Source of the DNA: Flammeovirgaceae bacterium
GTDB taxonomy: Bacteria > Bacteroidota > Bacteroidia > Cytophagales > Cyclobacteriaceae
NCBI GenBank assembly: GCA_023251155.1
Contig: JAHEZH010000054.1
Span: 1 to 34,412, forward strand
Reading direction: 5' to 3'
Length of the DNA stretch: 34,412 nt
The position numbers and the translations under genes were made by a program. Shown piece by piece: positions 7,827-34,412 of the stretch. The notes beneath the pieces are model-generated. The model was given only the letters and a program-made list of their open reading frames with translations. It did not search any database and was not told the origin of the DNA. The first letter of the stretch is position 1; each line of letters opens with the position of its first letter.

Positions 7827-10800
7827 ATGCTCCATTCCATTATTCAATTTTCCATACGCAATAAGCTCATCGTGGGCTTGTTCATTGCCGCACTCATCGG
7901 ATGGGGAAGTTATGAGGTCACTCAGCTTCCCATTGATGCCGTGCCCGATATCACGAATAACCAGGTGCAGGTGCTCACCATTGCACCTTCGCAGTCCGCG
8001 CTGGACATTGAGCGGCTGGTTACTTTTCCTGTAGAACAAACCATGGCGACCATTCCCGGTATTGAAGAGATTCGTTCCTTCTCTCGGTTTGGATTGTCGG
8101 TAGTGACCATTGTTTTCACCGATGCTACCGATGCCTACTGGGCACGGCAGCAGGTAAGTGAACGGCTTGGAGAAGCCAGGAAACAAATTCCTCCCGGAGT
8201 GGGCACTCCGGAGTTAGCACCCATGACCACAGGGCTTGGAGAAATTTACCAATACATCATAAAAACAAAGCCCGGTTATGAGAATACTTATACGGTAATG
8301 GAGTTGCGTACCATTCAGGACTGGATTGTACGCCGGCAGTTATTAGGTACTAAAGGTGTAGCGGATGTAAGCAGTTTTGGCGGTTACCTCAAGCAATTTG
8401 AAATCGCCCTGTCACCTGAAAAATTAAGAAGCCTTAACCTGTCGGTCAGTGAAGTATTTGCTGCACTGGAAAACAACAATCAGAATACAGGTGGTGCGTA
8501 CATCGAAAAGAATACCAGTGCCTACTTCATTCGCAGCGAAGGTCTGATCAAGTCCATCGATGACATCGGTAATATCATCGTACGCAGCACGGATACCGGT
8601 ATGCCACTATTGATGCGTGATGTGTCTACGATTAAGCTGGGTAACGCTATCCGCTTCGGAGCGATGACCCAAAACGGAAAAAGTGAAACGGTAGGTGCCG
8701 TGGTGATGATGCTGAAAGGAGCCAACTCTTCACAGGTGATTGCCAATGTAAAAGAACGCATCGCCATCATTGACAAAACATTGCCGGAGGGGGTTACCAT
8801 AGAGCCCTTTCTTGATCGTACCAAACTGGTCAACAATGCCATTGATACGGTGACGCGCAACCTGGCTGAAGGTGCGCTTATTGTCATCTTCGTCTTGGTT
8901 CTATTGCTTGGAAATGTAAGAGCAGGGTTGGTAGTGGCTTCTGTGATTCCACTGGCCATGCTGTTTGCCATCATCATGATGAACCTGTTTGGTGTATCGG
9001 GAAACCTGATGAGTCTGGGGGCGATTGATTTCGGGTTGATCATAGACGGAGCGGTAATTATCGTTGAGGCCACCTTGCATCACATTGCTACCTCAGGCAT
9101 CACTACCCGACTCACGCAGGATCAGATGGATGATGAGGTCGGCGCATCCGCCAATAAAATGATGCACGCTGCCGCTTTTGGGCAAATCATCATCCTTATT
9201 GTTTATCTTCCTATTCTTTCACTGGTGGGTATTGAAGGAAAAATGTTTAAGCCCATGGCACAGACGGTGATCTTCGCCATTATTGGGGCATTCATTTTAT
9301 CGCTTACGTATGTTCCCCTGGCTTCTTCCTTGTTCTTAAGCAGGGTGCCCGTACATAAAAAGAACATCTCGGACCGAATCATTAACCGAATTCATAAGAT
9401 CTATGAGCCAGCGCTGACATGGGCGTTGACCAAAAGAAGGACTGTCCTGGCCACCTCCGTTGTTTTGCTACTGGCGAGCATTACTCTGTTTGCTACCATG
9501 GGTGGTGAGTTTCTTCCTGAACTGGATGAAGGCGATTTTGCAGTAGATACACGCCTGATTACAGGTACCAACCTGACCTCTACCGTGCAGGCTACGCTCA
9601 AGGGTGAGGAAGTTCTTTTAAAGAATTTTCCTGAGGTGGAAAAAGTGATTGCCAAAATCGGCTCCGCTGAAATACCGACAGACCCCATGCCCATTGAAGC
9701 GGCCGATATGATGGTGGTCATGAAAGACAAATCGGAATGGGTGAGTGCCAGTACCAAAGAGGAGATGATCGCCAGGATGCAAAAGGCATTGAGTGAAAAT
9801 GTACCTGGTGTGTGGTTCGGATTTCAGCATCCCATTCAAATGCGCTTTAATGAATTGATGACGGGCGCGCGTCAGGATGTGGTAGTCAAAGTATATGGGG
9901 AAGATCTGGATCAGCTGACCACCTATGCAGCCCAGATCGGTAAACTGGCCAACGCCATAGAGGGAACAGAAAGTCTTTTCATTGAGAACATGACAGGCCT
10001 TCCGCAAATCATCATCCGCCTGAAACTGGATCAACTGGCGCGGTTTAATTTAACCATTCGGCAGGTCAATGAAGTAATTAATACTTCCATGGCAGGGCAG
10101 AGCGCAGGGCTTTTGTTTGAAGGAGAAAAGCGATTTGATATTGTTGTACGCCTGGACACTCAGAATCGTAAATCCATTGAGGATATCCGTAACCTGTACA
10201 TTACTTCGGCTAACGGAATGCAAGTACCCCTGTCGCAGGTGGCCGATGTGGTATTGGAAGTGGGACCGAACCAGATTCAACGCGATGATGCCAAGCGCAG
10301 AATTGTGGTGGGATTCAATACGCGTGGGCGCGATGTGCAAAGTATCGTACAGGAGTTGCAGAAGAAAGTAGATACCGGGGTGAAATTTGCTCCCGGCTAT
10401 TATGTTACCTATGGGGGTACGTTTAAAAATCTGCAGGAAGCCAAATCGCGCCTTGCTATAGCGGTGCCGGTATCGCTGGTGCTCATATTCATTCTCTTGT
10501 TTTTTGCGTTTGGCTCCGTGAAGCAAGGGCTGCTTATTTATACAGCCATACCGTTGTCAGCCATTGGTGGCGTGTTTGCCTTATGGCTTCGCGGTATGCC
10601 CTTCAGTATTTCAGCAGGTATCGGGTTCATCGCACTTTTTGGAGTAGCGGTACTTAATGGCATCGTACTCATTGCTGAATTCAATCAGTTAAAGAAATCC
10701 GGTTTAACCGATTTAAAAGACATCATCATGAAAGGCACCGCCACACGGTTACGTCCTGTGATAATGACGGCAATGGTTGCCTCGCTGGGTTTTTTACCGA

Positions 10801-11528
10801 TGGCGTTATCTCACGGCAGTGGTGCCGAAGTGCAGAAGCCATTAGCTACTGTAGTGATTGGTGGACTGCTGACCGCTACATTACTGACGTTGATTATTCT
10901 GCCCGTGTTGTACATGGTTGCGGAAAACATTTCAGCAAGAAAAACAAAACCATCCACGGTAGCCGTGCTCCTGATTTTCTTTCTGTTCGGTATTGGTAGT
11001 GTCACTCAGGCACAAACCACACGTGTGAGTATTTTTAAAACGGAAAGACAATTCCTTGAGCGTATTCCGGACCAGACGTTTGAAGTAAAGAATCATCCGC
11101 AAGCCGTTTCATTGGACAATCTTTCAACGCTCACTATCCGAGCCACCACCGGAACATATAAATTCGAATATGGTGATCTGTATGGGTATGCCAACGGTTC
11201 CGAATATCATCGTGCTTTTGGCAAGAGAAGCCCTCTTCATTTTTTTGGCTATTACAAAATAATCGACTGCCAGGGGTTAACACTTTACTCCAGAATGATT
11301 CATCACGGAAGAGGGGCAGGGGTGGATTATTTTTTCAGTACCGGCATATCCGAGCCGGTGCGGAAGCTTACGTTGCATGAATTGAAAAAAGCGTATTCCG
11401 GCAATCCCTCCTTCATTGAAAATGTGAAGCCTGTTTTTCGTGACTACTACATTGCCCTTACTTACAGAGACGGTAATGGCAGGGCGTTATTAAATAACCT
11501 GTACCTCCAATCCATCGATTCCTTATGA
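7827..11528 (+). CDS. czcA: HME-RND heavy-metal efflux pump with a C-terminal extension
   Basis: The inner-membrane proton antiporter of a tripartite metal exporter. Residues 1-1040 cover a complete CzcA/CusA protein: an N-terminal helix, two large periplasmic loops and twelve helices. The fourth helix has the HME signature D401-x5-D407-x6-E414 (GAIDFGLIIDGAVIIVEA), matching the proton-relay residues of CzcA. After VAENISARKTK, where CzcA homologues normally end, the frame continues for about 190 residues. This tail starts with a strongly hydrophobic segment ending in TQAQ (about 1044-1064), resembling a signal peptide or extra helix, followed by a soluble domain I do not recognise. Many Bacteroidota CzcA proteins instead carry a fused TolC domain. 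The stop overlaps the next start as ATGA. Metal could be Co/Zn/Cd or Cu/Ag; the sequence alone does not decide. Confidence 0.92.
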   Translation: MLHSIIQFSIRNKLIVGLFIAALIGWGSYEVTQLPIDAVPDITNNQVQVLTIAPSQSALDIERLVTFPVEQTMATIPGIEEIRSFSRFGLSVVTIVFTDATDAYWARQQVSERLGEARKQIPPGVGTPELAPMTTGLGEIYQYIIKTKPGYENTYTVMELRTIQDWIVRRQLLGTKGVADVSSFGGYLKQFEIALSPEKLRSLNLSVSEVFAALENNNQNTGGAYIEKNTSAYFIRSEGLIKSIDDIGNIIVRSTDTGMPLLMRDVSTIKLGNAIRFGAMTQNGKSETVGAVVMMLKGANSSQVIANVKERIAIIDKTLPEGVTIEPFLDRTKLVNNAIDTVTRNLAEGALIVIFVLVLLLGNVRAGLVVASVIPLAMLFAIIMMNLFGVSGNLMSLGAIDFGLIIDGAVIIVEATLHHIATSGITTRLTQDQMDDEVGASANKMMHAAAFGQIIILIVYLPILSLVGIEGKMFKPMAQTVIFAIIGAFILSLTYVPLASSLFLSRVPVHKKNISDRIINRIHKIYEPALTWALTKRRTVLATSVVLLLASITLFATMGGEFLPELDEGDFAVDTRLITGTNLTSTVQATLKGEEVLLKNFPEVEKVIAKIGSAEIPTDPMPIEAADMMVVMKDKSEWVSASTKEEMIARMQKALSENVPGVWFGFQHPIQMRFNELMTGARQDVVVKVYGEDLDQLTTYAAQIGKLANAIEGTESLFIENMTGLPQIIIRLKLDQLARFNLTIRQVNEVINTSMAGQSAGLLFEGEKRFDIVVRLDTQNRKSIEDIRNLYITSANGMQVPLSQVADVVLEVGPNQIQRDDAKRRIVVGFNTRGRDVQSIVQELQKKVDTGVKFAPGYYVTYGGTFKNLQEAKSRLAIAVPVSLVLIFILLFFAFGSVKQGLLIYTAIPLSAIGGVFALWLRGMPFSISAGIGFIALFGVAVLNGIVLIAEFNQLKKSGLTDLKDIIMKGTATRLRPVIMTAMVASLGFLPMALSHGSGAEVQKPLATVVIGGLLTATLLTLIILPVLYMVAENISARKTKPSTVAVLLIFFLFGIGSVTQAQTTRVSIFKTERQFLERIPDQTFEVKNHPQAVSLDNLSTLTIRATTGTYKFEYGDLYGYANGSEYHRAFGKRSPLHFFGYYKIIDCQGLTLYSRMIHHGRGAGVDYFFSTGISEPVRKLTLHELKKAYSGNPSFIENVKPVFRDYYIALTYRDGNGRALLNNLYLQSIDSL

Positions 11529-12760
11529 AACACACTTCGCTGGTTATGTTTTTAGTGACCATCTCTGCTTCCTGTTTCTCGCAGGAAACAGTGATCACAT
11601 TAAATGATGCACTGAAGCAAGCCCTCGAGAAGAATCCATCCATTCAGGCAGCAGCGCTGGAAACATCACGACAAATGACATTGAAGAAGACCGCTTTTGA
11701 ACTGCCAAAGACCGATGTCTCCCTGATGTATGGACAGTATAACAGCATTCAAAAAGGAGACAACAACCTGACGCTGACTCAGTCCATTCCTTTTCCCACG
11801 CTGTTCGGAGCACAAAATGGTTTGAATAAGGCAATGATTACTTCCGCGGAGCTGAAGGAGAACGTAAGCAAGAACGAACTCACTTTTCAGGTGAAACAGG
11901 TATTCAATCAGCTGTTGTATTTGAAACTGCGTCATCAATCCCTTATGCAGCAGGATAGCCTGCTCAGCGATCTTTTACGAATAGCCAATGTGCAATACAA
12001 AACAGGGGAGAGTACACTGGTGGCCAGGACCTCAGCAGAAACACAACTCTTCGAGATTCAAAATCAGAAGGCAAGAAATGAAGCGGATATACAAATTGCG
12101 TTGCGTCACCTTCAGTTGCTTTGTTTGTTGCCGGCACTCGCTGATGTACAGGGAAGTTTAGAAAATTTCAGTACTGTACCTGAAATGGATTCAACGGCCA
12201 TTCAGCAGAATCCATCCCTGGCCTACACCCGGCAACAGATGGATGTAGCGAACTGGCAGCGAAAGGTGGAGGCCTCCAGGGTTTTGCCTGATTTGCGTGT
12301 TGGTTACTTCAATCAGACGCTGATTGGTATTCAAAACATCGATGGCCAGGATCGCTACTTCGGTTCCAACAAACGCTTTCAGGGATTACAGGCAGGCGTA
12401 TCCATTCCGCTTTGGTTTGCTCCTCATATGGCGAGAATCAAGGCCGCTTCAATCGCTACGGAGGTAGTCAGGAAGCAGAGTGAATCCTTTACGCTCCAGC
12501 TGACGCAACAATACAATCAGGCCTTGCAGGAATTAATCAAGAACCGGAATAGCCTGGATTACTACCGAAGTGCTGCTCTTAAAACGGCAGACTTGCTCAT
12601 TACCCAAAGTCGCCTGGCATTCAAAAGCGGAGAGGTGGACCACACCGTGTTATTGCTTAACCTGAAGCAGGCACTGTCTATTCGTGAGGGATACCTGATT
12701 GCCCTGCAACAATACAATCAAAGCATCATTATTATCGATTATTTAAACGGCAAGATCTAG
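11525..12760 (+). CDS. czcC: Outer-membrane efflux channel (TolC/CzcC family)
   Basis: A 411-residue protein with a signal peptide (cleavage near CFSQ, residue 20). It has the two long helical-hairpin repeats of outer-membrane factors: NDALKQALEKNPSI and the conserved ITLNDAL-type start of repeat one, then the second repeat around LPDLRVGYFNQ and the long coiled helices near the C-terminus ending in ALQQYNQSIIIIDYLNGKI. Its length is normal for CzcC. It forms the trimeric duct through the outer membrane for the RND pump encoded just upstream, with which it shares an ATGA overlap. The next gene, the adaptor lipoprotein, starts 85 bases later. Confidence 0.9.
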   Translation: MKHTSLVMFLVTISASCFSQETVITLNDALKQALEKNPSIQAAALETSRQMTLKKTAFELPKTDVSLMYGQYNSIQKGDNNLTLTQSIPFPTLFGAQNGLNKAMITSAELKENVSKNELTFQVKQVFNQLLYLKLRHQSLMQQDSLLSDLLRIANVQYKTGESTLVARTSAETQLFEIQNQKARNEADIQIALRHLQLLCLLPALADVQGSLENFSTVPEMDSTAIQQNPSLAYTRQQMDVANWQRKVEASRVLPDLRVGYFNQTLIGIQNIDGQDRYFGSNKRFQGLQAGVSIPLWFAPHMARIKAASIATEVVRKQSESFTLQLTQQYNQALQELIKNRNSLDYYRSAALKTADLLITQSRLAFKSGEVDHTVLLLNLKQALSIREGYLIALQQYNQSIIIIDYLNGKI

Positions 12761-13995: not shown

Positions 13996-16500
13996 ATGTC
14001 AGCTACATCCGATCATGGTATAAAGGGCTTAACCTCATCACAGGTATCAGAGGCACGTGCACTCCATGGTCGCAATGAAGTGATTCGTGAAGCGCATTAT
14101 TTTCTCACCACAGTGAAAGGTCTTTTTAAAGACCCGATGCTTTTACTGTTACTGGTAGCCTCCTCGTTGTACTTTATCAGTGGCGAGGTGGGTAATGGCG
14201 TATTTATGATTTCTGCTATCTTCCTGGTCATCGGAATTTCATGGTATCAGGAGTCAAGAAGCCGTAACGCGCTGGCCGCATTGAAATCATTGACGCAACC
14301 CACGAGTAAAGTAATCCGTGATGGGGCCACGGTAGAAATCAGGAGAGAAGAGATTGTGGTTGGGGATTTTATGATAGTCGAAGAAGGTTCATCCGTTCCT
14401 GCCGATGGTGTCATCGTTCATTCCAATGATTTCTCTGTCAATGAATCCATACTCACCGGTGAATCGATGCCCGTGAGTAAAAATAAAGAAGAGAACCATA
14501 ACGAAGTATTTCAGGGGACAACGGTAACCGGAGGACTGGCCATCTGTGAAGTCAAAGCCATAGGAGCAGCCACTTCGTTAGGCAAGATCGGAAAGAGCCT
14601 TGAATCCATTGATGAAGAAGATACTCCGTTGCAGAAGCAGATCGGAAATTTTGTAAAGAAGATGGCCTATGTGGGTGCGGCCGTCTTCTTCATTGTGTGG
14701 GGAATTTACTATTTCAGATCGCACCAGGTACTTAGCAGTCTACTCAAGGCACTTACGTTGGCCATGAGCATTCTTCCGGAAGAAATACCGGTTGCCTTTA
14801 CCACCTTTATGGCGCTGGGTGCATGGCGCTTAATGAAGCTGGGGATTATTGTAAAGCATACGAAGACGGTGGAAACATTGGGAAGTGCCACCGTTATCTG
14901 TACGGATAAAACCGGAACGATTACGGAGAACAGAATGAGTCTGGCCCGACTTTTTGAGCTGGCAACGAATAAGATAATAACACCCGAAAAGGCAACATCC
15001 GAAGAGAAAGAGTTGATCACGGTTGCGATGTGGGCCAGTGAACCCATACCATTTGATCCGATGGAAATCGCCTTGCACGAGGCGTATGGAAAATCAACAG
15101 CTACGGATTCGCGACCGGAATACCACATGGTTCATGAATATCCGCTGGGAGGAAGACCTCCCATGATGACGCATGTTTTTGAGAATGCGGCAGGCCACCG
15201 CATCATTGCCGCCAAAGGAGCACCCGAGGCGATGATGCAGGTAGCTCATCTGAATGAAGAGGAGAAGAGGAATATCCTGTCTGCGATACAGACATTAGCG
15301 GAAGAAGGATTTCGCGTATTGGGTGTTGGTATTTCCACTTTCGCAGGAAATGATTTTCCGGTGAACCAGCAGCAACTTACATTCCGGTTCATGGGCCTGG
15401 TGGCCTTCTATGATCCTCCTAAGAAAAACATCGCCCGTGTATTCGATTCGTTTTACAAAGCCGGTATAGCAGTAAAGATCATCACCGGAGATAATGCAGC
15501 CACCACTTCCACCATCGCCCGGCAGATTGGCTTCAAAGGGGCAGAGAAAACAATGAACGGAGAAGAACTATTGAAGCTGAGTGAAGAGGAGCTGAACGTA
15601 AACGTAATGAAGGTCACTATCTTTACACGCATGTTCCCTGATGCGAAGCTGCGGATACTGAATGCACTGAAAGCCAACCATCAGATTGTGGCCATGACCG
15701 GTGACGGTGTCAATGATGGCCCTGCACTGAAGGCCGCACACATTGGTATCGCCATGGGAAAGAAAGGAAGCGAAATAGCGAAGGAAGTCTCATCGCTGAT
15801 ATTAAGTGATGATGATCTTGCCAAGATGGTCGACGCGGTGGCCATGGGGCGAAGAATTTATTCTAACCTGAAGAAAGCCATTCAGTACATTATTTCCATT
15901 CATATTCCCATTATCCTCACGGTATTTATCCCGCTGGTATTGGGCTGGATTTATCCCGGTATCTTCACACCGGTACATGTGATTTTTCTTGAACTGATCA
16001 TGGGGCCAACGTGCTCCATTATTTATGAGAATGAGCCAATGGAAAAGAATACAATGCAGCAACAGCCCCGACCGGTTACAGATACCTTTTTCAGTATGAA
16101 GGAATTAGGCACCAGTATTATACAAGGATTGGTGATCACCGCCGGTACATTGTTTATTTATCAGTATTCCGTTCGTCAGGGGTACAGTGAAGAGGTCACA
16201 CGGACAATGATATTTCTCACGCTGATCGCTGCCAATGTTTCACTTACTTTAGTAAACCGGTCTTTCTACTACTCCATTTTGACGACACTGGGCTACAAGA
16301 ATAATCTGGTGTTATTCATTACAGGTACGACCATTGGCTTGACCACTTTGTTATTACTCATTCCGGCCTTCACCCGCTTCTTTAAATTTGATGTGATGGA
16401 TGCATTTCAGCTGATGCTTAGTATCGGCATTGGGTGTGCCAGTGTGATCTGGTTTGAGTTGGTTAAAGCGGGTAAAAGAAGAGCAACCCTGCATGTATAA
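13996..16500 (+). CDS. Cation-transporting P-type ATPase (P2-like, not CPx type)
   Basis: An 834-residue ion pump with a cation-ATPase N domain (GLTSSQVSEARALHGRNEV), the actuator motif TGES, the phosphorylation site CTDKTGTITENR (D304), the nucleotide-binding cue KGAPEAMM and the hinge TGDGVNDGPALKAAHIGIAMG. Helix four reads LPEEIPV rather than the CPC/SPC of P1B heavy-metal ATPases, and there is no N-terminal heavy-metal-associated domain. It therefore groups with the P2/P3-like cation ATPases. About ten helices are predicted, with the C-terminal bundle complete. It lies 22 bases after czcB and 30 before the response regulator, so it is part of the operon. Substrate is uncertain: Ca, Mn, Mg or protons are all possible, and metal-stress homeostasis is inference. 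Confidence 0.9.
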   Translation: MSATSDHGIKGLTSSQVSEARALHGRNEVIREAHYFLTTVKGLFKDPMLLLLLVASSLYFISGEVGNGVFMISAIFLVIGISWYQESRSRNALAALKSLTQPTSKVIRDGATVEIRREEIVVGDFMIVEEGSSVPADGVIVHSNDFSVNESILTGESMPVSKNKEENHNEVFQGTTVTGGLAICEVKAIGAATSLGKIGKSLESIDEEDTPLQKQIGNFVKKMAYVGAAVFFIVWGIYYFRSHQVLSSLLKALTLAMSILPEEIPVAFTTFMALGAWRLMKLGIIVKHTKTVETLGSATVICTDKTGTITENRMSLARLFELATNKIITPEKATSEEKELITVAMWASEPIPFDPMEIALHEAYGKSTATDSRPEYHMVHEYPLGGRPPMMTHVFENAAGHRIIAAKGAPEAMMQVAHLNEEEKRNILSAIQTLAEEGFRVLGVGISTFAGNDFPVNQQQLTFRFMGLVAFYDPPKKNIARVFDSFYKAGIAVKIITGDNAATTSTIARQIGFKGAEKTMNGEELLKLSEEELNVNVMKVTIFTRMFPDAKLRILNALKANHQIVAMTGDGVNDGPALKAAHIGIAMGKKGSEIAKEVSSLILSDDDLAKMVDAVAMGRRIYSNLKKAIQYIISIHIPIILTVFIPLVLGWIYPGIFTPVHVIFLELIMGPTCSIIYENEPMEKNTMQQQPRPVTDTFFSMKELGTSIIQGLVITAGTLFIYQYSVRQGYSEEVTRTMIFLTLIAANVSLTLVNRSFYYSILTTLGYKNNLVLFITGTTIGLTTLLLLIPAFTRFFKFDVMDAFQLMLSIGIGCASVIWFELVKAGKRRATLHV

Positions 16501-16530
16501 GAAAGACGAGTGATCGATAGACAGTGAACG

Positions 16531-17205
16531 ATGAAAATACTGATCGTAGAAGACGAGCGTGAAATGGCTAAAAGCATTGTGCAATACCTGCGCCAGGAGA
16601 GTTACGTTTGCGAAGTAGCCTATACGGCAGCGGAGGCAGAAGAGAAAATTATGATGCACGATTATGACTGTGTACTGCTGGATATTACACTGCCGGATGG
16701 AAATGGGTTGACAGTAATGGAGAAGCTGAAGGGGCAAGGCAAACTGGATGGGGTCATCATTTTATCTGCCAAAAATTCGCTCGATGATAGAATTAAAGGA
16801 TTGAACCTGGGTGCGGACGATTACATTCCCAAACCATTTCACCTGGCTGAATTGGGGGCACGTGTATCGTCCGTTATTCGCAGGAAACGATTTGGAGGAA
16901 ATAATAAAATTACCCTGCATGAAATTACAATTGATCTGCTCGGAAAATCGGTCAGCGTGAATGGCCGGATGGTTGACCTTACGAGGAAAGAGTATGATCT
17001 TCTCTTGTTCTTACTATCCAACAAAGGCAGGGTAGTAATGAAGAATGCCATTGCGGAGCACCTTTCAGGTGATGATGCCGAAGTGTTCGACAACTTTGAT
17101 TTCATTTATGCCCACATGAAGAACTTAAAAAAGAAATTGAGTGAAGCCCACTGCCCGGATTATATTAAGACCGTTTACGGCCTGGGATACAAATTTGAAC
17201 TATGA
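16531..17205 (+). CDS. OmpR/PhoB-family response regulator
   Basis: A 224-residue regulator. The receiver domain (1-118) has the acidic pair VEDER (residues 7-10), phospho-acceptor D51 in LLDITLPDGNG, S79 in ILSAK and K101 in IPKPF. The C-terminal winged helix (about 125-224) shows LTRKEYDLLLFL and ends with the typical IKTVYGLGYKFEL. It overlaps the downstream kinase start as ATGA, so the two form a cotranscribed pair. Place at the end of the metal-efflux operon suggests CzcR/CusR-like autoregulation of the whole block from the region upstream of 7350. Confidence 0.92.
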   Translation: MKILIVEDEREMAKSIVQYLRQESYVCEVAYTAAEAEEKIMMHDYDCVLLDITLPDGNGLTVMEKLKGQGKLDGVIILSAKNSLDDRIKGLNLGADDYIPKPFHLAELGARVSSVIRRKRFGGNNKITLHEITIDLLGKSVSVNGRMVDLTRKEYDLLLFLLSNKGRVVMKNAIAEHLSGDDAEVFDNFDFIYAHMKNLKKKLSEAHCPDYIKTVYGLGYKFEL

Positions 17206-18461
17206 AGCTGCTTGACCGCACCATAAAAAATTACCTGCTGTATTCGATTCTGTTGGTAATTTCCTGCACGCCATTATTTTATTTTTCGATCCGGTATTTG
17301 TTTGAACACGACATGGACGAAGTGTTGATCGCCCATAAGGACGATTTTAACCGATCAATAGCGTACATGAAATCGGGTAAGGATATCGATTTTTATCACC
17401 TGATGAATAAGGAATTTGTACTCCGGCCAACGGCTGTTCTTCCTTTAAGAGATTCACTTTTTACGCTGGACTTGTATGACAGTAGTGCCGCCACACGTGT
17501 TCCGCATCGGATCTTCAGTACGGGGGTCACCGTAAATGGACAACACTATGAACTTCAGATCAGGGAATCGATGGTGAATACGAGGTCACTGATCGGAGCG
17601 ATCATGAGTATACAAGTGCTGATGCTTTCGTTATTGTTAGGAGGTCTGGTATTGATCAATCGCAGGCTTTCTAAAAAGATCTGGAGTCCCTTTTATATCC
17701 TTCTCGAAAGAGTAAAGAAATACCAGATCGACCAGGATAAAACACTGGAGCTTCCTCCTTCTTCCACAGCCGAATTCAGAGACCTTGGTCTGGTAATACG
17801 ACAGCTGATTGACAAAAACCATGATGCGTATCAAAGTCAAAAGGAATTCACCGAGAATGCGTCACATGAATTGCAAACTCCACTGGCGATCAGCCGGGCG
17901 AAGCTTGAGCTGCTGGCCCAGACCAAAGAGCTTACTCAGGAGCAGGCAGAGCTGGTAGAAAATTTACTGGATTCGATCGACCGGCTAACGCGGCTAAACA
18001 AGAGTCTGTTACTTTTATCAAAAATTGAGAACAGGCAGTTTTTTGAAACGGAGGACATTTCACTGAAGGCGGTAGTCAATCGATCCATAGAGGCTTATCA
18101 CCGGCAGGCGCGGGAAAGACACATTACCGTAAACTTTGAAGTAACCGAAGATGCGGTACTTCGGATTAATCCAATCATACTCGAAGTACTTACCAGCAAT
18201 CTGATTTCGAATGCCATTCGCTATACTCCGGATCAAGGAGAGGTGATGATCAAACAGACCGGAACTCAATTGCAGATCAGTAATACCGGATTACCACTTC
18301 AGCATCCTGAAAAATTGTTTGAGCGTTTTCATCGTGAATCAAGAACAATTTTGGGAAGCGGGCTCGGATTAGCACTGGTAAAGAAAATATGTGAGGTGAG
18401 TAATTATCAGGTTTCGTACCGGTACTCGTCAGCCATGCACCATTTTATCATTTCGTTTTAA
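17202..18461 (+). CDS. Sensor histidine kinase of the metal-efflux operon
   Basis: A 419-residue inner-membrane kinase with helices at about residues 12-32 and 137-157 enclosing a periplasmic sensor of roughly 100 residues. A HisKA domain follows with ASHELQTPLAISRAK (H222), then a HATPase domain with the N box NLISNAIRYTPD and the G2 box GSGLGLALVKKICE. The G1 region is short, as is common in Bacteroidota kinases that retain the rest of the Bergerat fold. The sensor has no Cys- or His-rich metal site that I can point to. It pairs with the upstream OmpR-type regulator through an ATGA overlap and is probably the CzcS/CusS-like sensor for the exporter. Confidence 0.9.
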   Translation: MKLLDRTIKNYLLYSILLVISCTPLFYFSIRYLFEHDMDEVLIAHKDDFNRSIAYMKSGKDIDFYHLMNKEFVLRPTAVLPLRDSLFTLDLYDSSAATRVPHRIFSTGVTVNGQHYELQIRESMVNTRSLIGAIMSIQVLMLSLLLGGLVLINRRLSKKIWSPFYILLERVKKYQIDQDKTLELPPSSTAEFRDLGLVIRQLIDKNHDAYQSQKEFTENASHELQTPLAISRAKLELLAQTKELTQEQAELVENLLDSIDRLTRLNKSLLLLSKIENRQFFETEDISLKAVVNRSIEAYHRQARERHITVNFEVTEDAVLRINPIILEVLTSNLISNAIRYTPDQGEVMIKQTGTQLQISNTGLPLQHPEKLFERFHRESRTILGSGLGLALVKKICEVSNYQVSYRYSSAMHHFIISF

Positions 18462-25510: not shown

Positions 25511-26802
25511 TTAAACATTAAACTTCCGGACCAAATAGATCAGCGTAACCACCGCGGTGAAGATACTAATGCCAACAATCTCTACGGGTTTGGATTGATA
25601 CAGGTACCAGAAAATCAAAATAATGGTGAGGACAGGAACAGTTAATCCTCCGGGTATGAGGAAAGACGCTTTGAATTCTGCCGATGGTTTCAACCGGAAT
25701 TTGATGGCCGCCAGGGCCACACCAAAGAAGGTGAGCAGCATGGTAATCGTAGCCAATATAATGAGCTGCTTGAATCCACCGGATATGGAAATAGTAAAAG
25801 CAACGATGCAGAACCAGATGATCGCCAGGTAAGGTGTATTGAATCGCGGATGAATGCGTGACAGCAATTTAGGTAACATTTTTTTTTTGCTCCGGCATAC
25901 ATTACTCTGGGAAATACCATCACTACCGAATTCAAACTTCCGGTTACCGAGATCACGGCACAACTGACTACAAATGTAAATCCCCATGGGCCTACCAGTA
26001 CGTTGGCCACCTGAGCGAGCGGTGCTTTGGTATGATTGATCAGATCAGCACCCAATACACCTTGTGCCACAAGATGAATCAGGCCAAAGAAGACCACCAG
26101 ACTTCCTACTCCCAGCATCAAACCCAAAGGCCCTGTGCGGCTTGGGTTCTTCATCTCTCCGCTAATGTTCAATGCCGTTTCTCCCCCGGCAAAAGCAAAA
26201 AAGAGAACAAGCGAAGCTTCACCGAGTCGGGCGAAGGAGGGCCATTCCGGCCAGCTGATGTTATCCGGATTAATAGCGAAAATGCCCAGCACGACTATTC
26301 CTACCAATGGAACTAACTTGATCGCGGTAAATGTTTTCACGGCAATCATGCCTTGCTTGATGCCCCTGATATTGATATAGGCAAACGCAGCTAGGATCAA
26401 CAGGAAAAGCAGTGCCCGATACGGCAGCGTGCTAAATGCGGGAAAAGGAACCGATAACAGATCACCGGCACCGTTGAGCAATGCTGCGGCAATCACCGTT
26501 CCGTACGCAAACCAGAATGCTTGATTGGCCAGAAACCCAACATAAGGGCCGAATGCTTTTTCAAGATAAATGTAAGAGCCACCCGATTCCGTAATCCGGC
26601 TACTCACTTCGGCATAGCACAGGGCCACCAGCAGAAACATGCAGCCACAAACCAGATAGGCGATAATGCTGGAGTTGCCGAGGATCACTGCGATCAGTGC
26701 AGGAAGCAAAAAGATGCCGCCACCCACCGTGATGTTGACAACGTTGATCGCCACATCCATGATCCCTAGTTCTTTCTTCAGTGTTTCCTGTTGCTCTTTC
26801 AT
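25511..26802 (-). pseudogene. APC-family amino-acid permease, broken by a frameshift in an A10 tract
   Basis: Joined across a frameshift, the gene encodes about 430 residues and twelve helices, normal for an APC permease. The first part has DVAINVVNITVGGGIFLLPA in TM1 and FAFAGGETALNISGEMKNP in TM6, and reaches FPRVMYAGAKKK. The rest, MLPKLLSRIHPRFNTPYLAIIW and five more helices, lies in another frame. The break is a run of ten T at 25879-25888 (A10 in the coding strand); one more A would restore the frame and give the family's usual length before LLPK. It is a recent mutation, a homopolymer sequencing error or a slippage site. Start ATG 26802 places TM1 normally; ATG 26856 would add 18 basic residues. 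Substrate unknown. Confidence 0.82.
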
Positions 26803-26957
26803 AGTTGCCGTGCTGCTGATGATGTGTTTCTGTTTATTACGTCGTGTTGCTGTCATGGTGGTTTATGTTTCCACAAAACACGTGGTCGTTTCGGCTTGGT
26901 GAGGACACAAGCCGGGGTGAATCGATTTAAACGGAGGTGAATGAACTTTAAGTTATT

Positions 26958-28759: not shown

Positions 28760-29842
28760 TTAGTGTTTTTCGGTTTGATAATGTGCTTTCAGTACATCTT
28801 CACCAAAGTCATTTCCCTTCTCGCGCCAGATCGCATGAATATGATTGGCTCCATTGCGCGGCCCGCCATTGTTATCGAACTCAATCAGAAAGGTAGGTCC
28901 GTTCAGAATAAAGTAATGAGGCTTGTCTTCCGCGTATTCGCCAATCCAGCCGAAGTAAACGTTATCAAGGCCCGCTTTTAAAATCGCATCGTATTCCCGC
29001 ATCGCTTTATCGTACTCCAGGTTGAAAACGAATTCGCGGATAATGTAGTCGAGAATGGATTTTTGATTTTTATTCATCTCCGCAGCGGGTATTCCCCATA
29101 CATCGACCAGCCGTTTACCGCTTTCGGCTGAGGTGATGATGTCGCCCGGAACGGTTACGCTCGAAGTTGCTTTCTTCTGCTGTACTGGATTTAATAGATG
29201 AATGAGCTTGATTCCCAAGTCTTCCTCTTGTCCCAACACCCGCCAGCCCGCGTATTCGGTTTCAGGAAACTCCGCCGGATCCGTACCCAGGAAAAATGGC
29301 GTGACGCTGACCTTGTCTCCCGCAAAGGTAAAGTTGACAGACAGGTGATGGCCTTCCAGTTTATACCCCCATACCTTATCGGTTGGTTTTTCGTAAAAAG
29401 CGAAATAGAAATTTTTGTGCGACCATTGTAAGGACTTGATGAAGTGATAGACTGTGTCGTTGAATGCTTTCTTGTAGTGCAGACTGTCGAAATAGCGGTC
29501 CAGCAGGTCATCCAGGTGCATGATGCTGGTGGCTTTCAGATACCCCTGTGAACTTAATGAAACCGACAGGACGCGGTGCACCAGTTTTCGTTGCTCAATC
29601 GTCATGTTTCCAATGCTGGCTCCCTTTCGGGCGCGAAGCCCAATGGGAAGGTTAGTCCATTGCGTGCGCGACGTATCGGTGAAGTTCAATTTCCCTGACC
29701 TGTTCTGCCGTTCACCAAATGAGTGGTAAAGCAGGTTGGCTGTTTTACGGATTTCAGCTGCGTAGTTCTCCTGACCGTAAACACGTGTTGTCAGAATCAG
29801 AACAAGTATACAAGGCAGGATTAAGCCGTAGCGCTTTCTCAT
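28760..29842 (-). CDS. DUF3500-family exported protein
   Basis: A 360-residue protein with a signal peptide (ILVLILTTRVYGQ). The DUF3500 pattern is clear: WTNLPIGLRARKGASIGNM, TIEQRKLVHRVLSVSLSSQG, ATSIMHLDDLL, VWGYKLEGHHLSVNFTF, TPFFLGTDPAEF, AGWRVLGQEEDLGIKLI and the C-terminal FLIEFDNNGG, then ANHIHAIWREKGNDFGEDVL, followed by KAHY. The His-rich GHHL and NHIH motifs resemble metal ligands, but the family has no established reaction known to me. It starts the minus-strand run NTF2-like, hydrolase, peptidase remnant and is divergent from the three-repeat protein at 30062. Confidence 0.88.
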   Translation of the reverse strand: MRKRYGLILPCILVLILTTRVYGQENYAAEIRKTANLLYHSFGERQNRSGKLNFTDTSRTQWTNLPIGLRARKGASIGNMTIEQRKLVHRVLSVSLSSQGYLKATSIMHLDDLLDRYFDSLHYKKAFNDTVYHFIKSLQWSHKNFYFAFYEKPTDKVWGYKLEGHHLSVNFTFAGDKVSVTPFFLGTDPAEFPETEYAGWRVLGQEEDLGIKLIHLLNPVQQKKATSSVTVPGDIITSAESGKRLVDVWGIPAAEMNKNQKSILDYIIREFVFNLEYDKAMREYDAILKAGLDNVYFGWIGEYAEDKPHYFILNGPTFLIEFDNNGGPRNGANHIHAIWREKGNDFGEDVLKAHYQTEKH

Positions 29843-29958: not shown

Positions 29959-29985
29959 GAGGCAGCCGTTTCAGCTGCCTCTTTT
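29959..29985 (+). terminator. Rho-independent terminator inside a divergent promoter region
   Basis: GAGGCAGC at 29959-29966 and GCTGCCTC at 29974-29981 form a perfect eight-base stem with a seven-base loop, followed by TTTT. It is oriented for the plus strand. The genes on both sides are transcribed away from this place, so it does not end either of them. It would stop a short RNA started to its left or attenuate transcription into the gene at 30062. Confidence 0.6.
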
Positions 29986-30061
29986 CCGGTTTCAATACCA
30001 TTGTGGACAGAACGGGCGGCCAGGTGTAATCTTGAAGCGGTTTATTCCCGTTATTTGTAAC

Positions 30062-31309
30062 GTGGAAAAGGCTCAACAATCAATCACGCGCACCATTTTA
30101 CTGGTGGTGGGTATAGCAGTGGCAATCTTACTGTGTGCAACCCATGGCATGGCACAGTCCGCTGCCGGCTTTATGTATGGCAAGGTGTACACCGCTTCGG
30201 CCACTTACGAAGGACAGATCCGCTGGGGAACGGAAGAAGCTTTCTGGACGGATTTTTTTAATGCCTCCAAAAAGTCGACAAGCAATTACAAAAAGCAGGT
30301 GACCCAGGATAGAAAAGAAGAAAGCTCATGGATGGATTTTGACTGGGACATTCTCAGCATCTGGGAGAACAAAACCACCATACATCAGTTCAGCTGCCAG
30401 TTTGGTGATATCAAAGAACTGGAGGTGCTCAATAGAAGTAATGCCCGTCTCCGTTTCAAAAATGGATTGCAGATGGAGGTGAATGGTGACGGATACAACG
30501 ACATCGGTACGAAAATACAAGTGCTTGACAAAGAACTGGGATGGACATCGCTCCACTGGGATAAAGTACAAAAGGTAGAGTTCGCTTCTATTCCGGCGGG
30601 GACTCCGGTATTGGCAACGGCACCCTTATACGGTACAGTAGAGACCAGTCGCAAGGAAAAATTCACCGGCTACATTCAGTGGGATCATGACGAGCGTGTG
30701 AGCACCGACAAACTGGATGGTGAATCACGCGATGGAAAAATCTCTGCTGCTTTCTCTGAAATTGTTTCCATTGAAAAAAATGATGGCGGAAGCGATGTGG
30801 CTTTTAAGTCTGGCCGTCAGCTTCACCTTACGGGAACCAATGATGTTAATTCGGACAACAAAGGAATCATCGTCATCCAACCGGGAAAAGGAATGGTGGA
30901 TATTCCATGGAATTCGTTCAAAAAAGTAACGTTCACAGCAGCGGCCAATTCAGGGCCTTCTTTTGAAAGCTTCGCTGATCCGAAAAAATTATCGGGTACT
31001 GTATTTCTGTATGACGCCAAAGAAATAGCAGGCAACTTGATTTATGACCTCGATGAATCGCTCGATGTGGAAACGCTGGAAGGAAAAGATAACAACATTC
31101 AGTACACCATCCCCTTTCGTAATATCAAAAGCATCAAACCAAAAAATCTGGACTATGCCACCATCGAATTGAAAAATGGCGAGACACTTTTGCTGGGCGA
31201 TGGGAGAGATGTGTCGGGCAGCAATGACGGAATACTGGTGATCGTGAAGGGAAAAAAAGAGCCGGTACACGTGCGGTGGAAAAATATCGATCAGATTATC
31301 TTTGACTAA
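30062..31309 (+). CDS. Exported protein of three tandem beta-rich modules (unnamed family)
   Basis: I recognise no named family. The GTG at 30062 is chosen because it gives a signal peptide with a helix at about residues 11-27 and cleavage near GMAQ; the frame extends upstream to an ATG-less stretch. The 415-residue product has three homologous modules of about 100-138 residues (37-174, 188-291, 310-415). Each begins with G-[KT]-V, then an [FY]-x-G-x-I-x-[WY] segment followed by acidic D-x-x, then DGES or related, FxxIxSI, an LKxGxxL strand, a G-x-[DN]-D-x-x-x-x-N-x-G-I turn and a final W-x-x-[FI]. Module one has a 40-residue insert (71-108). A close paralog starts at 33224. The stop lies two bases before a LytS kinase gene, so the two are cotranscribed. 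Confidence 0.8.
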   Translation: MEKAQQSITRTILLVVGIAVAILLCATHGMAQSAAGFMYGKVYTASATYEGQIRWGTEEAFWTDFFNASKKSTSNYKKQVTQDRKEESSWMDFDWDILSIWENKTTIHQFSCQFGDIKELEVLNRSNARLRFKNGLQMEVNGDGYNDIGTKIQVLDKELGWTSLHWDKVQKVEFASIPAGTPVLATAPLYGTVETSRKEKFTGYIQWDHDERVSTDKLDGESRDGKISAAFSEIVSIEKNDGGSDVAFKSGRQLHLTGTNDVNSDNKGIIVIQPGKGMVDIPWNSFKKVTFTAAANSGPSFESFADPKKLSGTVFLYDAKEIAGNLIYDLDESLDVETLEGKDNNIQYTIPFRNIKSIKPKNLDYATIELKNGETLLLGDGRDVSGSNDGILVIVKGKKEPVHVRWKNIDQIIFD

Positions 31310-31311
31310 TC

Positions 31312-32328
31312 GTGCGCATCACAAAACGATTTATTATTGGTTCGGTACTGCTGCTGGTGTTGATTGCCGCAGTGACCTGGTTTGAGATTCGGTTCAACCC
31401 GACTTCGCTCATCTACTTTACAGCTGCATGGGTGGTAGTAGTGCTTCTTCTTTTGTGGATAGGCAATCGTTTATTAACCAGGCTGTTCAATCGCTATCTC
31501 TCGTGGCTCAGCTATGGTAACATTCGTTTTTTTGCCCATCTGTTTTGCGGTGTGATTTATTCATTAATCGTGATCAATGGTTCCTATACGGCATTGAAAT
31601 ACCTGCTGACCATTGATCCGCCTACGCGTGCGCAGTTGATTGTGATGAATGTGTACGGGGCCATCCTTTTTATTCCTGCCTTCTCCATTTACTTCAGCCT
31701 TCACTTTCTCCGCAGCTGGCGCAGATCAGAAGTGGAATCAGAAAAAATTCAGAAAGAAAATGTCCGGTCTCAGCTGGATTCCTTAAAAAGTCATCTTGAT
31801 CCTCATTTTCTTTTTAACAACCTCAATATTCTTTCTTCACTGATTGAGAAAGATAAAGACCGCTCCAAAGAGTTTCTCGACAAGTTTGCCGAAGTATACC
31901 GGCTGTTGTTGCGCTCACGCACAGAAGACGTGATTCCTTTACACGAAGAGCTGGACTTCATCGCATCGTATTATTTTCTGCTGAAGACACGCTTCGACGA
32001 ATTGATTCAGGTGACAATTACAATTCCTGCATCGCTGCATCATTTGAGTTTACCACCACTTACATTACAAATGCTGATTGAAAATGCGATCAAGCACACG
32101 TTAATTACGGAAAAGAAACCATTGAAGATACATGTAGCGGCAAACGCGAAAACGATCATCGTCACCAATACCTTAAATGAGAAACGGAATACCACACCCA
32201 CTTCGGGCAGTGGACTGGAAAATATTCGCAGACGCTACAGCCACTTTACAAGTGAAGCGGTTGTCGTGGAGAAAACGGAGACCGAATTTAAAGTCACCCT
32301 ACCTTTACTTGAATTCACCAGCCAATGA
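31312..32328 (+). CDS. LytS-type sensor histidine kinase
   Basis: A 338-residue kinase with four predicted helices in the first 140 residues (about 7-25, 35-57, 72-92 and 108-130) and short loops, so it probably senses within or near the membrane rather than through a large periplasmic domain. The His_kinase (PF06580) motif DPHFLFNNLNILSSLIEKD carries H165. A HATPase domain follows with LTLQMLIENAIKH and GSGLENIRRRY. The start is GTG, two bases after the three-repeat gene, and the end overlaps the LytTR gene as ATGA. Its partner is therefore the next gene. It likely reports on something related to the repeat proteins on either side. Confidence 0.92.
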   Translation: MRITKRFIIGSVLLLVLIAAVTWFEIRFNPTSLIYFTAAWVVVVLLLLWIGNRLLTRLFNRYLSWLSYGNIRFFAHLFCGVIYSLIVINGSYTALKYLLTIDPPTRAQLIVMNVYGAILFIPAFSIYFSLHFLRSWRRSEVESEKIQKENVRSQLDSLKSHLDPHFLFNNLNILSSLIEKDKDRSKEFLDKFAEVYRLLLRSRTEDVIPLHEELDFIASYYFLLKTRFDELIQVTITIPASLHHLSLPPLTLQMLIENAIKHTLITEKKPLKIHVAANAKTIIVTNTLNEKRNTTPTSGSGLENIRRRYSHFTSEAVVVEKTETEFKVTLPLLEFTSQ

Positions 32329-33086
32329 CCATTCTTATTATTGAAGACGAAAACCTGGCCGCAGAGAAACTGAAAAACCTGTTGCTCGAAATTGATGCAA
32401 CTCATGAAGTGCTAGCTTCGCTGCGCTCGATCGAGTCGGCTACGGAATGGCTTTCGGAAAACACACCTCCCGATCTGATCATTACTGATATTCAATTGCT
32501 CGATGGCCTTTCGTTTGAAATTTTCAGGAATGTAAAAGTTACCGTGCCGGTTATTTTCACTACGGCATTTGATCAATATGCCATTCGAGCCTTTGAAGTA
32601 AACAGTATTGATTATCTGTTGAAGCCGGTGCAAAAAGATAAGCTGGCGGCCAGTATTCAAAAGATGAAGTCGCTGGATAAGGCAAAGCCATCCGTTGCTT
32701 ACGATGAAGTGCTGAAACTGCTTCGCTCCGGTTCCGGTCAGCCGGAATACAAGTCGCGTTTTATGGTGCGGATTGGTCAGCGTATTGTAGCTATTCCCGT
32801 TGAGAAAATTGCTTACTTCTTCAGTGAAAGCAAACTCACCTATATTGTCACTGACGATAACCGTAAATATCCTTTCGATCTTCCTTTGGATGAGATTGAT
32901 GCACAGATTAATCCTAAGTCTTTTTTTAAAATCAATCGCCAGTTCATCATCAGCTTTACTTCCATTGCGGAGATTCATCCTTACTTTAAAGGAAGAATCA
33001 AACTCAAACTGAATCCCGATCAGCCCGAAGAAATCATTGTCAGCTCAGAGCGTACACCTGAGTTTAAGAAATGGCTGGACCAGTAA
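32325..33086 (+). CDS. LytTR-family response regulator
   Basis: A 253-residue regulator. The receiver domain (1-120) has acidic residues in IEDEN, phospho-acceptor D55 in IITDIQLLDG, TTAFDQYAIRAF and the Lys in YLLKPVQKD. A LytTR DNA-binding domain occupies about residues 145-253: FMVRIGQRIVAIPVEKIAYF, then FSESKLTYIVT, LDEIDAQINPKSFFKINRQF and a final SSERTPEFKKWL. It overlaps the LytS start/stop as ATGA. The second three-repeat protein gene begins 137 bases downstream, so it may be one of its targets. Confidence 0.93.
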   Translation: MTILIIEDENLAAEKLKNLLLEIDATHEVLASLRSIESATEWLSENTPPDLIITDIQLLDGLSFEIFRNVKVTVPVIFTTAFDQYAIRAFEVNSIDYLLKPVQKDKLAASIQKMKSLDKAKPSVAYDEVLKLLRSGSGQPEYKSRFMVRIGQRIVAIPVEKIAYFFSESKLTYIVTDDNRKYPFDLPLDEIDAQINPKSFFKINRQFIISFTSIAEIHPYFKGRIKLKLNPDQPEEIIVSSERTPEFKKWLDQ

Positions 33087-33223
33087 GGCAAATTGAGTGC
33101 CCGGTAATCCCGATTCAGCCGGCAGGAGTTCCGGTTGGTCTGTAAATGCCTTAATTCATTGTCTTTGCTTTGCACTTTTGCGTTGATAGTTCCAGAAACA
33201 GATAACTTTAACCATCACGCAAA

Positions 33224-34412
33224 ATGAAAAAGATGTACCTCCTACTGATCAGCATCATGATCATCTCTTCCGTATCGGCCCAGGACGAAGGATTTATTTA
33301 TGGAAAAATTTACATGGACGATGACCGTTCTTATGAGGGACCCATTCGATGGGGAAAAGAAGAAGTGTATTGGGTGGATGTGTTTAATGCTTCCAAAGAA
33401 GTAAATGAAAACATCCGCTTTCTGACACGCGAAGAAAAAGAACGGCTGGATGAAAAACGCTCGTGGCGAAATGGAAATTTCTCGGCATCCTCTACGCTGC
33501 GCTGGATGGGTTTGGGATCGGGAAGTGATCGCTCGTATGAAGAAGACTACACGCACCAGTTCTCCTGCCAGTTTGGCGATCTGAAATCGATAAAGGTACT
33601 GAGCAGCAAACGGGTGGAACTGGAACTGCAAAACGGAAAGCAGGTACGAGTGAGCGGTGAGGGATATAATGACATCGGTGCGGATCTGAAAATTATTGAC
33701 AAAGAAATAGGGGAGATGGAACTGGACTGGCACCGCATTCAACGAATCGAATTTAAAAGTACCCCTTCCCGGCTTGCACAGAAATTCGGTGAGCCGCTGT
33801 ATGGATCCGTGCAAACATTCCAGGGAACATTTACAGGTTACATTCAATGGGATCATGATGAGCGTGTGTCAACGGATAAACTGGATGGTGAATCCGAAGA
33901 TGGAAAAGTAAGTTTGATGTTTGATAAGATCATTTCGATTGAACCACACCTGAACCGAAGCCATGTCATACTGAAGTCCGGGCGGGAACTGGAGCTGCGT
34001 GGCTCGAACGATGTGAATTCGGATAACAAAGGCATTATCATCACCGATGAAAAAGGAATGATGACGGATGTTCCCTGGGATGAATTCAAAAAACTAACAT
34101 TGATGTCCCCTCCATCAGTTGCCTTGCCTCGCTATGAAAGCTTTAAATCGCAAAAAGAGCTGACGGGCACCGTGGCTACCAAGAGCGGAAAAACCTTGTC
34201 AGGCCGGATAGTTCTTGACCTCGATGAGGAATATGATTTCGAATTGTTTCAGGGAAAGGAAGATGAAATTGAGTTTACAATCCCGCTACGTAACATGAAA
34301 CGGATAGAGGTAACCGGATACAATAGCACCGATGTGTATTTAACCAATGGCAAAAAACTTGCTTTGCATGAATCGCAGGATGTAGGCGAGTTGAATCAGG
34401 GCGTGCTGGTTT
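33224..34412 (+). CDS. Paralog of the three-module exported protein, 3' end outside the window
   Basis: The frame opens with ATG at 33224 and is open to the right edge (396 codons, no stop). A signal peptide ends near VSAQ (about residue 20). It aligns along its length with the protein at 30062. Module one has a FIYGKIY start, RWGKEEVYW, FNASK and HQFSCQFGDL, with a longer insert than its paralog. Module two has FTGYIQWDHDERVSTDKLDG, RGSNDVNSDNKGII and DVPWDEFKKL. Module three starts with LTGTVATKSG and continues with LDLDEEYDFE. The module-two core is almost identical in both paralogs, also at DNA level. It is separated from the LytTR gene by 137 bases and may have its own promoter. Function unknown; periplasmic or surface location inferred from the signal peptide. 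Confidence 0.78.
   Translation, partial: MKKMYLLLISIMIISSVSAQDEGFIYGKIYMDDDRSYEGPIRWGKEEVYWVDVFNASKEVNENIRFLTREEKERLDEKRSWRNGNFSASSTLRWMGLGSGSDRSYEEDYTHQFSCQFGDLKSIKVLSSKRVELELQNGKQVRVSGEGYNDIGADLKIIDKEIGEMELDWHRIQRIEFKSTPSRLAQKFGEPLYGSVQTFQGTFTGYIQWDHDERVSTDKLDGESEDGKVSLMFDKIISIEPHLNRSHVILKSGRELELRGSNDVNSDNKGIIITDEKGMMTDVPWDEFKKLTLMSPPSVALPRYESFKSQKELTGTVATKSGKTLSGRIVLDLDEEYDFELFQGKEDEIEFTIPLRNMKRIEVTGYNSTDVYLTNGKKLALHESQDVGELNQGVLV

Follow-up and report, generated by a model that had tools for sequence, protein, structure and literature searches.

The analyzed DNA, referred to here as the window, is a stretch of 34,412 nucleotides that ends with four genes, all on the plus strand and all with confirmed reading frames. 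The first gene, A (30062..31309 including the stop codon, start codon GTG), encodes an exported three-module protein of 415 amino acids, with modules at approximately residues 34–178, 186–296, and 301–415. It is followed by HK (31312..32328), which encodes a PF06580-type membrane histidine kinase with hardly any outside part (Pfam E 1.2e-20), and by RR (32325..33086), which encodes a receiver and a LytTR DNA-binding domain (PF00072, E 3.1e-15; PF04397, E 6.5e-21). The fourth gene, B (33224..34412), encodes an exported paralog of A, 45% identical to it. Because the end of the window is also the end of contig C315, B is incomplete and its third module is cut.

The initial annotation had described two exported paralogs enclosing a kinase and a LytTR regulator, the first of them two bases from the kinase. 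Both statements were confirmed: the frames and domain assignments agree with the former, and for the latter, two bases separate the stop codon of A, which ends at 31309, from the first base of HK at 31312. The HK and RR frames overlap by four bases.

Elsewhere in the window, an AcrB-type efflux pump gene adjoins a gene for an outer-membrane efflux protein (7827-12760, plus strand), and a cation-transporting P-type ATPase precedes a second two-component system, made up of an OmpR-type regulator and then a HisKA kinase (13996-18461, plus strand). An amino acid permease frame was found at 25690-26856 on the minus strand; its last approximately 50 residues, judged by eye, do not resemble a permease and overlap a second minus-strand frame, possibly reflecting a frameshift. 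The gene divergent from A (28760-29842, minus strand) encodes a DUF3500 protein (PF12006, E 3.3e-80), and the predicted regulator site of A lies within the gap shared by the two genes.

Both the receiver and the LytTR domain of RR exceeded the Pfam cut-off, and HK and RR together have the domains of a two-component system with a LytTR response regulator. Kinase motifs, including the phosphoacceptor region, were conserved across 60 aligned HK orthologs. Four membrane helices were read by eye in HK, leaving two outside stretches of about 10 residues each, with limits also set by eye. Mean identity of the 60 orthologs to the HK of the window was 0.52 for the kinase part, 0.43 (moderate) for the second outside stretch, and 0.13 for the first. 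Outside stretches this short suggest that HK detects its signal inside the membrane or with the help of a partner.

The kinase had initially been assigned to the LytS type. Its kinase part is indeed LytS-like, but the 5TMR-LYT input domain, said in the available part of PMC10653868 to mark all LytS kinases, was absent from the five Pfam matches of HK up to E 1. HK is thus not a LytS-type kinase in the strict sense.

A and B carry signal-peptide-like N-termini ending AQ-S or AQ-D, without a lipobox cysteine, as read from the sequence. The modules of A are homologous beyond chance in profile comparison (M1/M2, E 5.6e-12; M1/M3, E 5.7e-9; M2/M3, E 1.7e-20). No Pfam or NCBIfam model matched either protein above its curated cut-off. 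Weak Pfam matches were seen among 45 aligned members of the family, most frequently FERM_C (17 members, best E 2.7e-4). The protein database contained 1075 homologs at E 1e-3; among the 120 of these that were listed, none had a Pfam domain and one bore a functional name, a PRC-barrel label taken from its source. A sequence search of the PDB yielded no relative of A or B (best E 0.53), and no description of the family was found in the papers searched, a literature set poor in subscription journals.

Comparison of the module fold with solved structures gave weak matches, and the beta domain of HsiE/TagJ and the SH3-like/Sm-like small beta-barrel were compared. The former is a C-terminal beta domain of the ImpE type, and 1zbp is an ImpE protein.

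Two shared motifs proposed earlier for the modules were retained in part. The core [FY]xGxIxWxxDE was found in modules 1 and 2, but module 3 of A reads IAGNLIYDLDE. The turn DVxSDNKGI held as a feature of module 2, but not as a full motif, as only N-D-V and G were invariant among 12 distant relatives. This limited conservation does not support a conserved Ca site, and no support was found for the suggestion that the modules bind Ca or a polymer. Ca binding by DVNSDN was considered and rejected, its middle residues not being kept in Acidobacteriota. The function of A and B in the periplasm is probably structural or one of binding.

The distribution of the protein was determined with the genome of the window counted in each set. 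At the family level, it was detected in 65 of 295 genomes, representing 19 of 84 genera; among near relatives, 4 of 58 were positive, and in the class, 4 of 395 genomes. The surroundings of the copies were fetched, and A/B, HK, and RR were placed by tblastn. The order protein-HK-RR was observed in 57 of the 65 positive family genomes, including the window, and in 38 of the 57 a B gene followed on the same stretch, at a distance from RR of less than 1 kb in 36 cases and of 3.2 and 4.3 kb in the other two. The neighborhood survey thus revealed a conserved, unnamed four-gene unit.

The remaining eight family genomes, all belonging to genus g249, contained no HK ortholog. Their best kinase matches scored 165–188 bits, which is the level of paralogs (up to 205 bits in genomes with an ortholog), compared with 272–388 bits for HK orthologs outside the genus and 503 bits for the nearest relative.

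In gene clusters from 83 loci, the protein was represented 82 times and RR and HK 60 times each, while the next commonest neighbor reached 18. Related genomes were included in these counts, which are consequently not independent, and all distance matrices correlate with each other (r 0.86–0.91). The neighborhood could on these grounds be an accident of inheritance among related genomes, with the proteins unrelated to the regulator. The recurrence of other neighboring genes in at most 18 of the 83 loci speaks against such an accident, as does the promoter-phased site described below, which is common to both genes, is kept by relocated B copies, and is absent where the kinase is absent; we regard this explanation as highly improbable.

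In a tree of 124 proteins, with A and B labels assigned by position before tree building, 48 copies, all located before HK, formed an A clade (support 0.94), and 52 copies formed its sister, a B clade (support 0.92), of which 39 were located behind RR and 13 were unlinked. The joint clade of A and B had a support of 0.97, while some deeper nodes were weak. Twelve more protein-HK-RR copies and one unlinked copy branched outside both clades. Since protein-HK-RR copies occur outside A and B alike, this arrangement is most likely the older state, with B arising through one old duplication, as judged from the branching order.

Upstream of both A and B lies a direct repeat in which TATCCCGATTCR occurs twice with a 21-bp period. 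A site model was trained on 52 upstream stretches and tested on another 53. At period 21, scores above 15 bits were obtained for 37 of the 53 held-out upstreams (16/16 for B and 21/37 for A), compared with 1 of 1060 dinucleotide shuffles, while other periods from 14 to 33 gave at most 7 of 53. The 21-bp period in the held-out upstreams agrees with the geometry of LytTR sites, described in the available text of PMC4847170 as two repeats of 9–11 nt that are 11–13 nt apart.

The window was scanned on both strands with a model trained without it and without three relatives of its genus. The best dimers were located at 33106 (24.5 bits), at the overlapping position 33085 (18.2 bits), and at 29962 (18.1 bits); the next scored 13.9 bits. 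The predicted RR site before B accordingly occupies 33106..33138 on the plus strand. A possible third half-site (33085..33096, plus strand), in register with this pair, overlaps the end of RR. The predicted RR site before A (29962..29994, plus strand) starts exactly 100 bp 5' of the start codon.

With a model trained on linked copies, at least 12 bits were reached by 37/37 linked B and 46/60 linked A upstreams. Two of the 14 A upstreams below 12 bits, as well as L049, scored below zero. The lower proportion for A suggests that its control is less uniform than that of B.

A relation of the repeat to the promoter was also observed. The −7 box of Bacteroidota is given as TAnnTTTG at −12 to −5 (PMC9723704, available portion). 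With one mismatch allowed, this box was found at two exact distances behind the dimer, 34 and 55 bp, which differ by one 21-bp period, in 15+16 of 45 B promoters and 7+5 of 46 A promoters with a site; the largest pile in 200 shuffles was 4. The boxes of the window are in phase. The probable −7 box of B (CACTTTTG, 33173..33180, plus strand), with one mismatch to TAnnTTTG, is separated from the upstream repeat by 34 bp and from the start codon by 43 nt. For that of A (GTTATTTG, 30050..30057, plus strand), with two mismatches, the corresponding distances are 55 bp and 4 nt.

The distance from the end of TTTG to the start codon was exactly 4 nt in 15 of 60 A genes, including that of the window, and 3 nt in five more, compared with 2 and 0 of 59 B and unlinked copies; in the other genomes, the in-frame ATG lying farthest upstream was used as the start, and some starts are uncertain. 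This spacing places the first transcribed base approximately at the start codon, which supports 30062 as the true start of A, and the A transcript is probably leaderless.

Control of the genes at 30062 and 33224 by the LytTR regulator had been proposed for testing. By computation, with a direct repeat of LytTR geometry before both genes, such regulation is very probable, and A and B are most likely direct targets of RR.

In the genome of the window, a scan with a strict pattern gave 40 hits, compared with 25 for the reversed pattern. Besides the two sites before A and B, 38 hits remained, of which seven were inspected for a wider regulon; all seven lay inside open frames, and no further target was found among them. 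Seven pattern hits were also fetched from four other genomes, the strongest being L229 (26.0 bits), L231 (23.5 bits), and L233 (21.1 bits). The first of these (L229:1508-1540, genome G030) is a copy of the repeat with a divergent HK/LytTR pair on one side and the gene for an exported START-domain-like protein on the other; this arrangement may represent another system built in the same way.

Part of the motif is therefore shared by other LytTR systems, and the 26-bit site beside another pair means that a site alone does not name its regulator. Several kinase paralogs are present per genome, and the repeats before A and B might in principle belong to another LytTR regulator of the cell, a paralog of RR, the pair considered here controlling something else. 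B copies located away from the pair bear on this question and were scored with a model whose training set consisted of the 97 linked copies alone (60 A and 37 B).

In genomes with an HK ortholog, the site was present in 9/9 unlinked B copies (17.4–26.7 bits), two of which, L058 and L075, are only 3–4 kb off. In genomes without an HK ortholog, it was found in 0/7 (−8.9 to 4.8 bits); six of these seven copies belong to one genus, so that they represent few independent losses. Left out of this count were L113 (g249, −0.4 bits), L105 (9 nt upstream), L054 (none), L121 (11.6 bits, presence of HK not checked), and L122 (a fragment), and the linked copies L003 and L004 were dropped as duplicates of L071 and L078. 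The seven site-less copies reside in genomes that possess kinase paralogs but no ortholog of HK, indicating that paralogs alone do not maintain the site. Control by a paralogous regulator is accordingly considered improbable.

The initial annotation had left it undecided whether the repeat proteins are the sensor of the kinase or its output. That B keeps its site when moved and survives without the kinase favors output over sensor for B, and A may be either.

Relatives of the protein were detected by a contig scan in Acidobacteriota and Candidatus Electryonea. In six loci (L007, L008, L009, L010, L163, and L164; L007, L009, and L010 from the contig scan), the genes for an ECF-type sigma factor and a putative anti-sigma factor precede that of the protein. 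Pfam confirmed the sigma factor in L007, L009, L010, and L164 and a zinc-finger anti-sigma domain in L007; the anti-sigma factor of L010 had no Pfam match and was placed by position and similarity.

In a survey of Acidobacteriota, the protein was present in 26 of 297 genomes, with a copy behind the sigma/anti-sigma pair in three of the 26 (L008, L163, and L164). With the exception of one fragment (G866 contig 23), the copies were fetched. A tblastn search at E 1e-4 detected no sigma/anti-sigma pair at the remaining fetched copies; L170 had a weak sigma match on the opposite strand at a distance of 1.8 kb. None of the fetched Acidobacteriota copies was adjoined by a kinase or regulator. Several lone copies (L172, L174, L175, L177, L180-L182, and L188) appear by eye to carry an uncleaved N-terminal membrane anchor with a linker.

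No kinase match at E 1e-30 was obtained in the four contig-scan genomes outside Bacteroidota (three Acidobacteriota and one Electryonea), and the site model found no site in the four sigma-linked loci L007-L010 (1.4 bits or less). The occurrence of paralogs without the kinase in most genomes, earlier regarded as an argument against a common system, is therefore observed in Acidobacteriota but not in the family of the window, where 57 of 65 genomes have the kinase.

Kinase-free copies indicate that the protein does not need the kinase, and the linkage to ECF sigma/anti-sigma pairs, together with the mostly lone copies outside Bacteroidota, favors output over sensor. The simplest reading is that a useful exported protein was placed under envelope-type control more than once. 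Alternatively, the protein may be a portable outside sensing subunit employed by two unrelated machines, the LytTR two-component system in Bacteroidota and the ECF sigma/anti-sigma system in Acidobacteriota and Electryonea; its own gene would then be the first target and the amount of sensor the feedback variable. This alternative appears unlikely.

Taken as a whole, the pair probably forms a narrow, self-contained circuit in which the kinase acts through the LytTR regulator on the repeats before A and B, activating both. An envelope signal would reach HK, the membrane kinase with hardly any outside part, and HK would phosphorylate RR. The regulator would then bind the 21-bp-period direct repeat before A and the one before B, activating A-HK-RR and, as a second transcription unit, B. 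With A in an operon with HK and RR, the system would feed back on its own level. A and B, exported proteins of three beta modules each, would be made in response to the envelope signal. The families, gene order, single duplication, sites, and promoter phasing are supported by computation; phosphotransfer, binding at the repeats, activation rather than repression, the envelope as the place of the signal, and the role of A and B there are what we infer from the families.

A variant of this circuit assigns A to the input side, as the outside sensory subunit of HK, with B as the output and the induction of A setting the gain or ending the signal. It would suit a kinase with almost no outside part, whose second outside stretch of about 10 residues is moderately conserved, and all 48 copies of the A clade lie directly before HK-RR, while 13 of the 52 copies of the B clade do not (Fisher p 1.2e-4, relatedness ignored). 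The linkage of A is, however, already explained by the shared operon, and the protein occurs without the kinase in Acidobacteriota, as does B in genus g249. In a distance correlation over 39 genomes, A was not tied more closely than B to the membrane part of HK (partial r of 0.24 for A and 0.37 for B), and a sensor role of A deduced from coevolution was rejected for want of an A-specific signal. Three-component sensing of this kind is thus seen as a doubtful, if conceivable, alternative to the circuit in which A and B are both outputs.

In comparison with known systems, the proposed circuit resembles BtsS/BtsR-yjiY(btsT) and YpdA/YpdB-yhjX of gamma-proteobacteria, in which a PF06580-type kinase and a LytTR regulator likewise serve a small set of targets, with a site made up of two direct repeats. 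The GGCATTTCAT pair of YpdB also has a 21-bp period, as counted from the oligonucleotide in the available text of PMC4847170. In contrast, the targets of these two systems are transporters, whereas here both targets belong to an unnamed family of exported repeat proteins, one of the two being encoded in the operon of the regulator. Unlike in the LytS/LytTR systems of gamma-proteobacteria, the 5TMR-LYT input domain was not found here.

Autoregulation through direct repeats with similar half-sites is also a feature of the LytTR regulatory systems (LRS) and of the LRS-like operons of Bacteroides, according to the accessible part of PMC6193735. Their promoters, as given there, consist of the repeat, 11 bp, a 4-base box, 19 bp, and TATCTTTG, the sum of 34 bp being the same as here. 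In the same part of that source, an LRS comprises a LytTR regulator and a membrane inhibitor without kinase or receiver, whereas the present locus contains both and is a full two-component system, not an LRS. With respect to the six loci with ECF sigma/anti-sigma operons, in which the exported protein is located behind both genes, the regulator of the window differs in being a two-component system, and the protein is the common part.

With these results, a family of more than 1000 members without a Pfam or NCBIfam model gains a probable regulator, a promoter, and a phasing rule, so that a single reporter suffices to search for its inducing signal. The absence of the site where the kinase is absent provides a natural control for the prediction of LytTR targets in Bacteroidota. 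That the protein lies beside two unrelated signaling systems, each in a different phylum, hints at an envelope function of broad utility.
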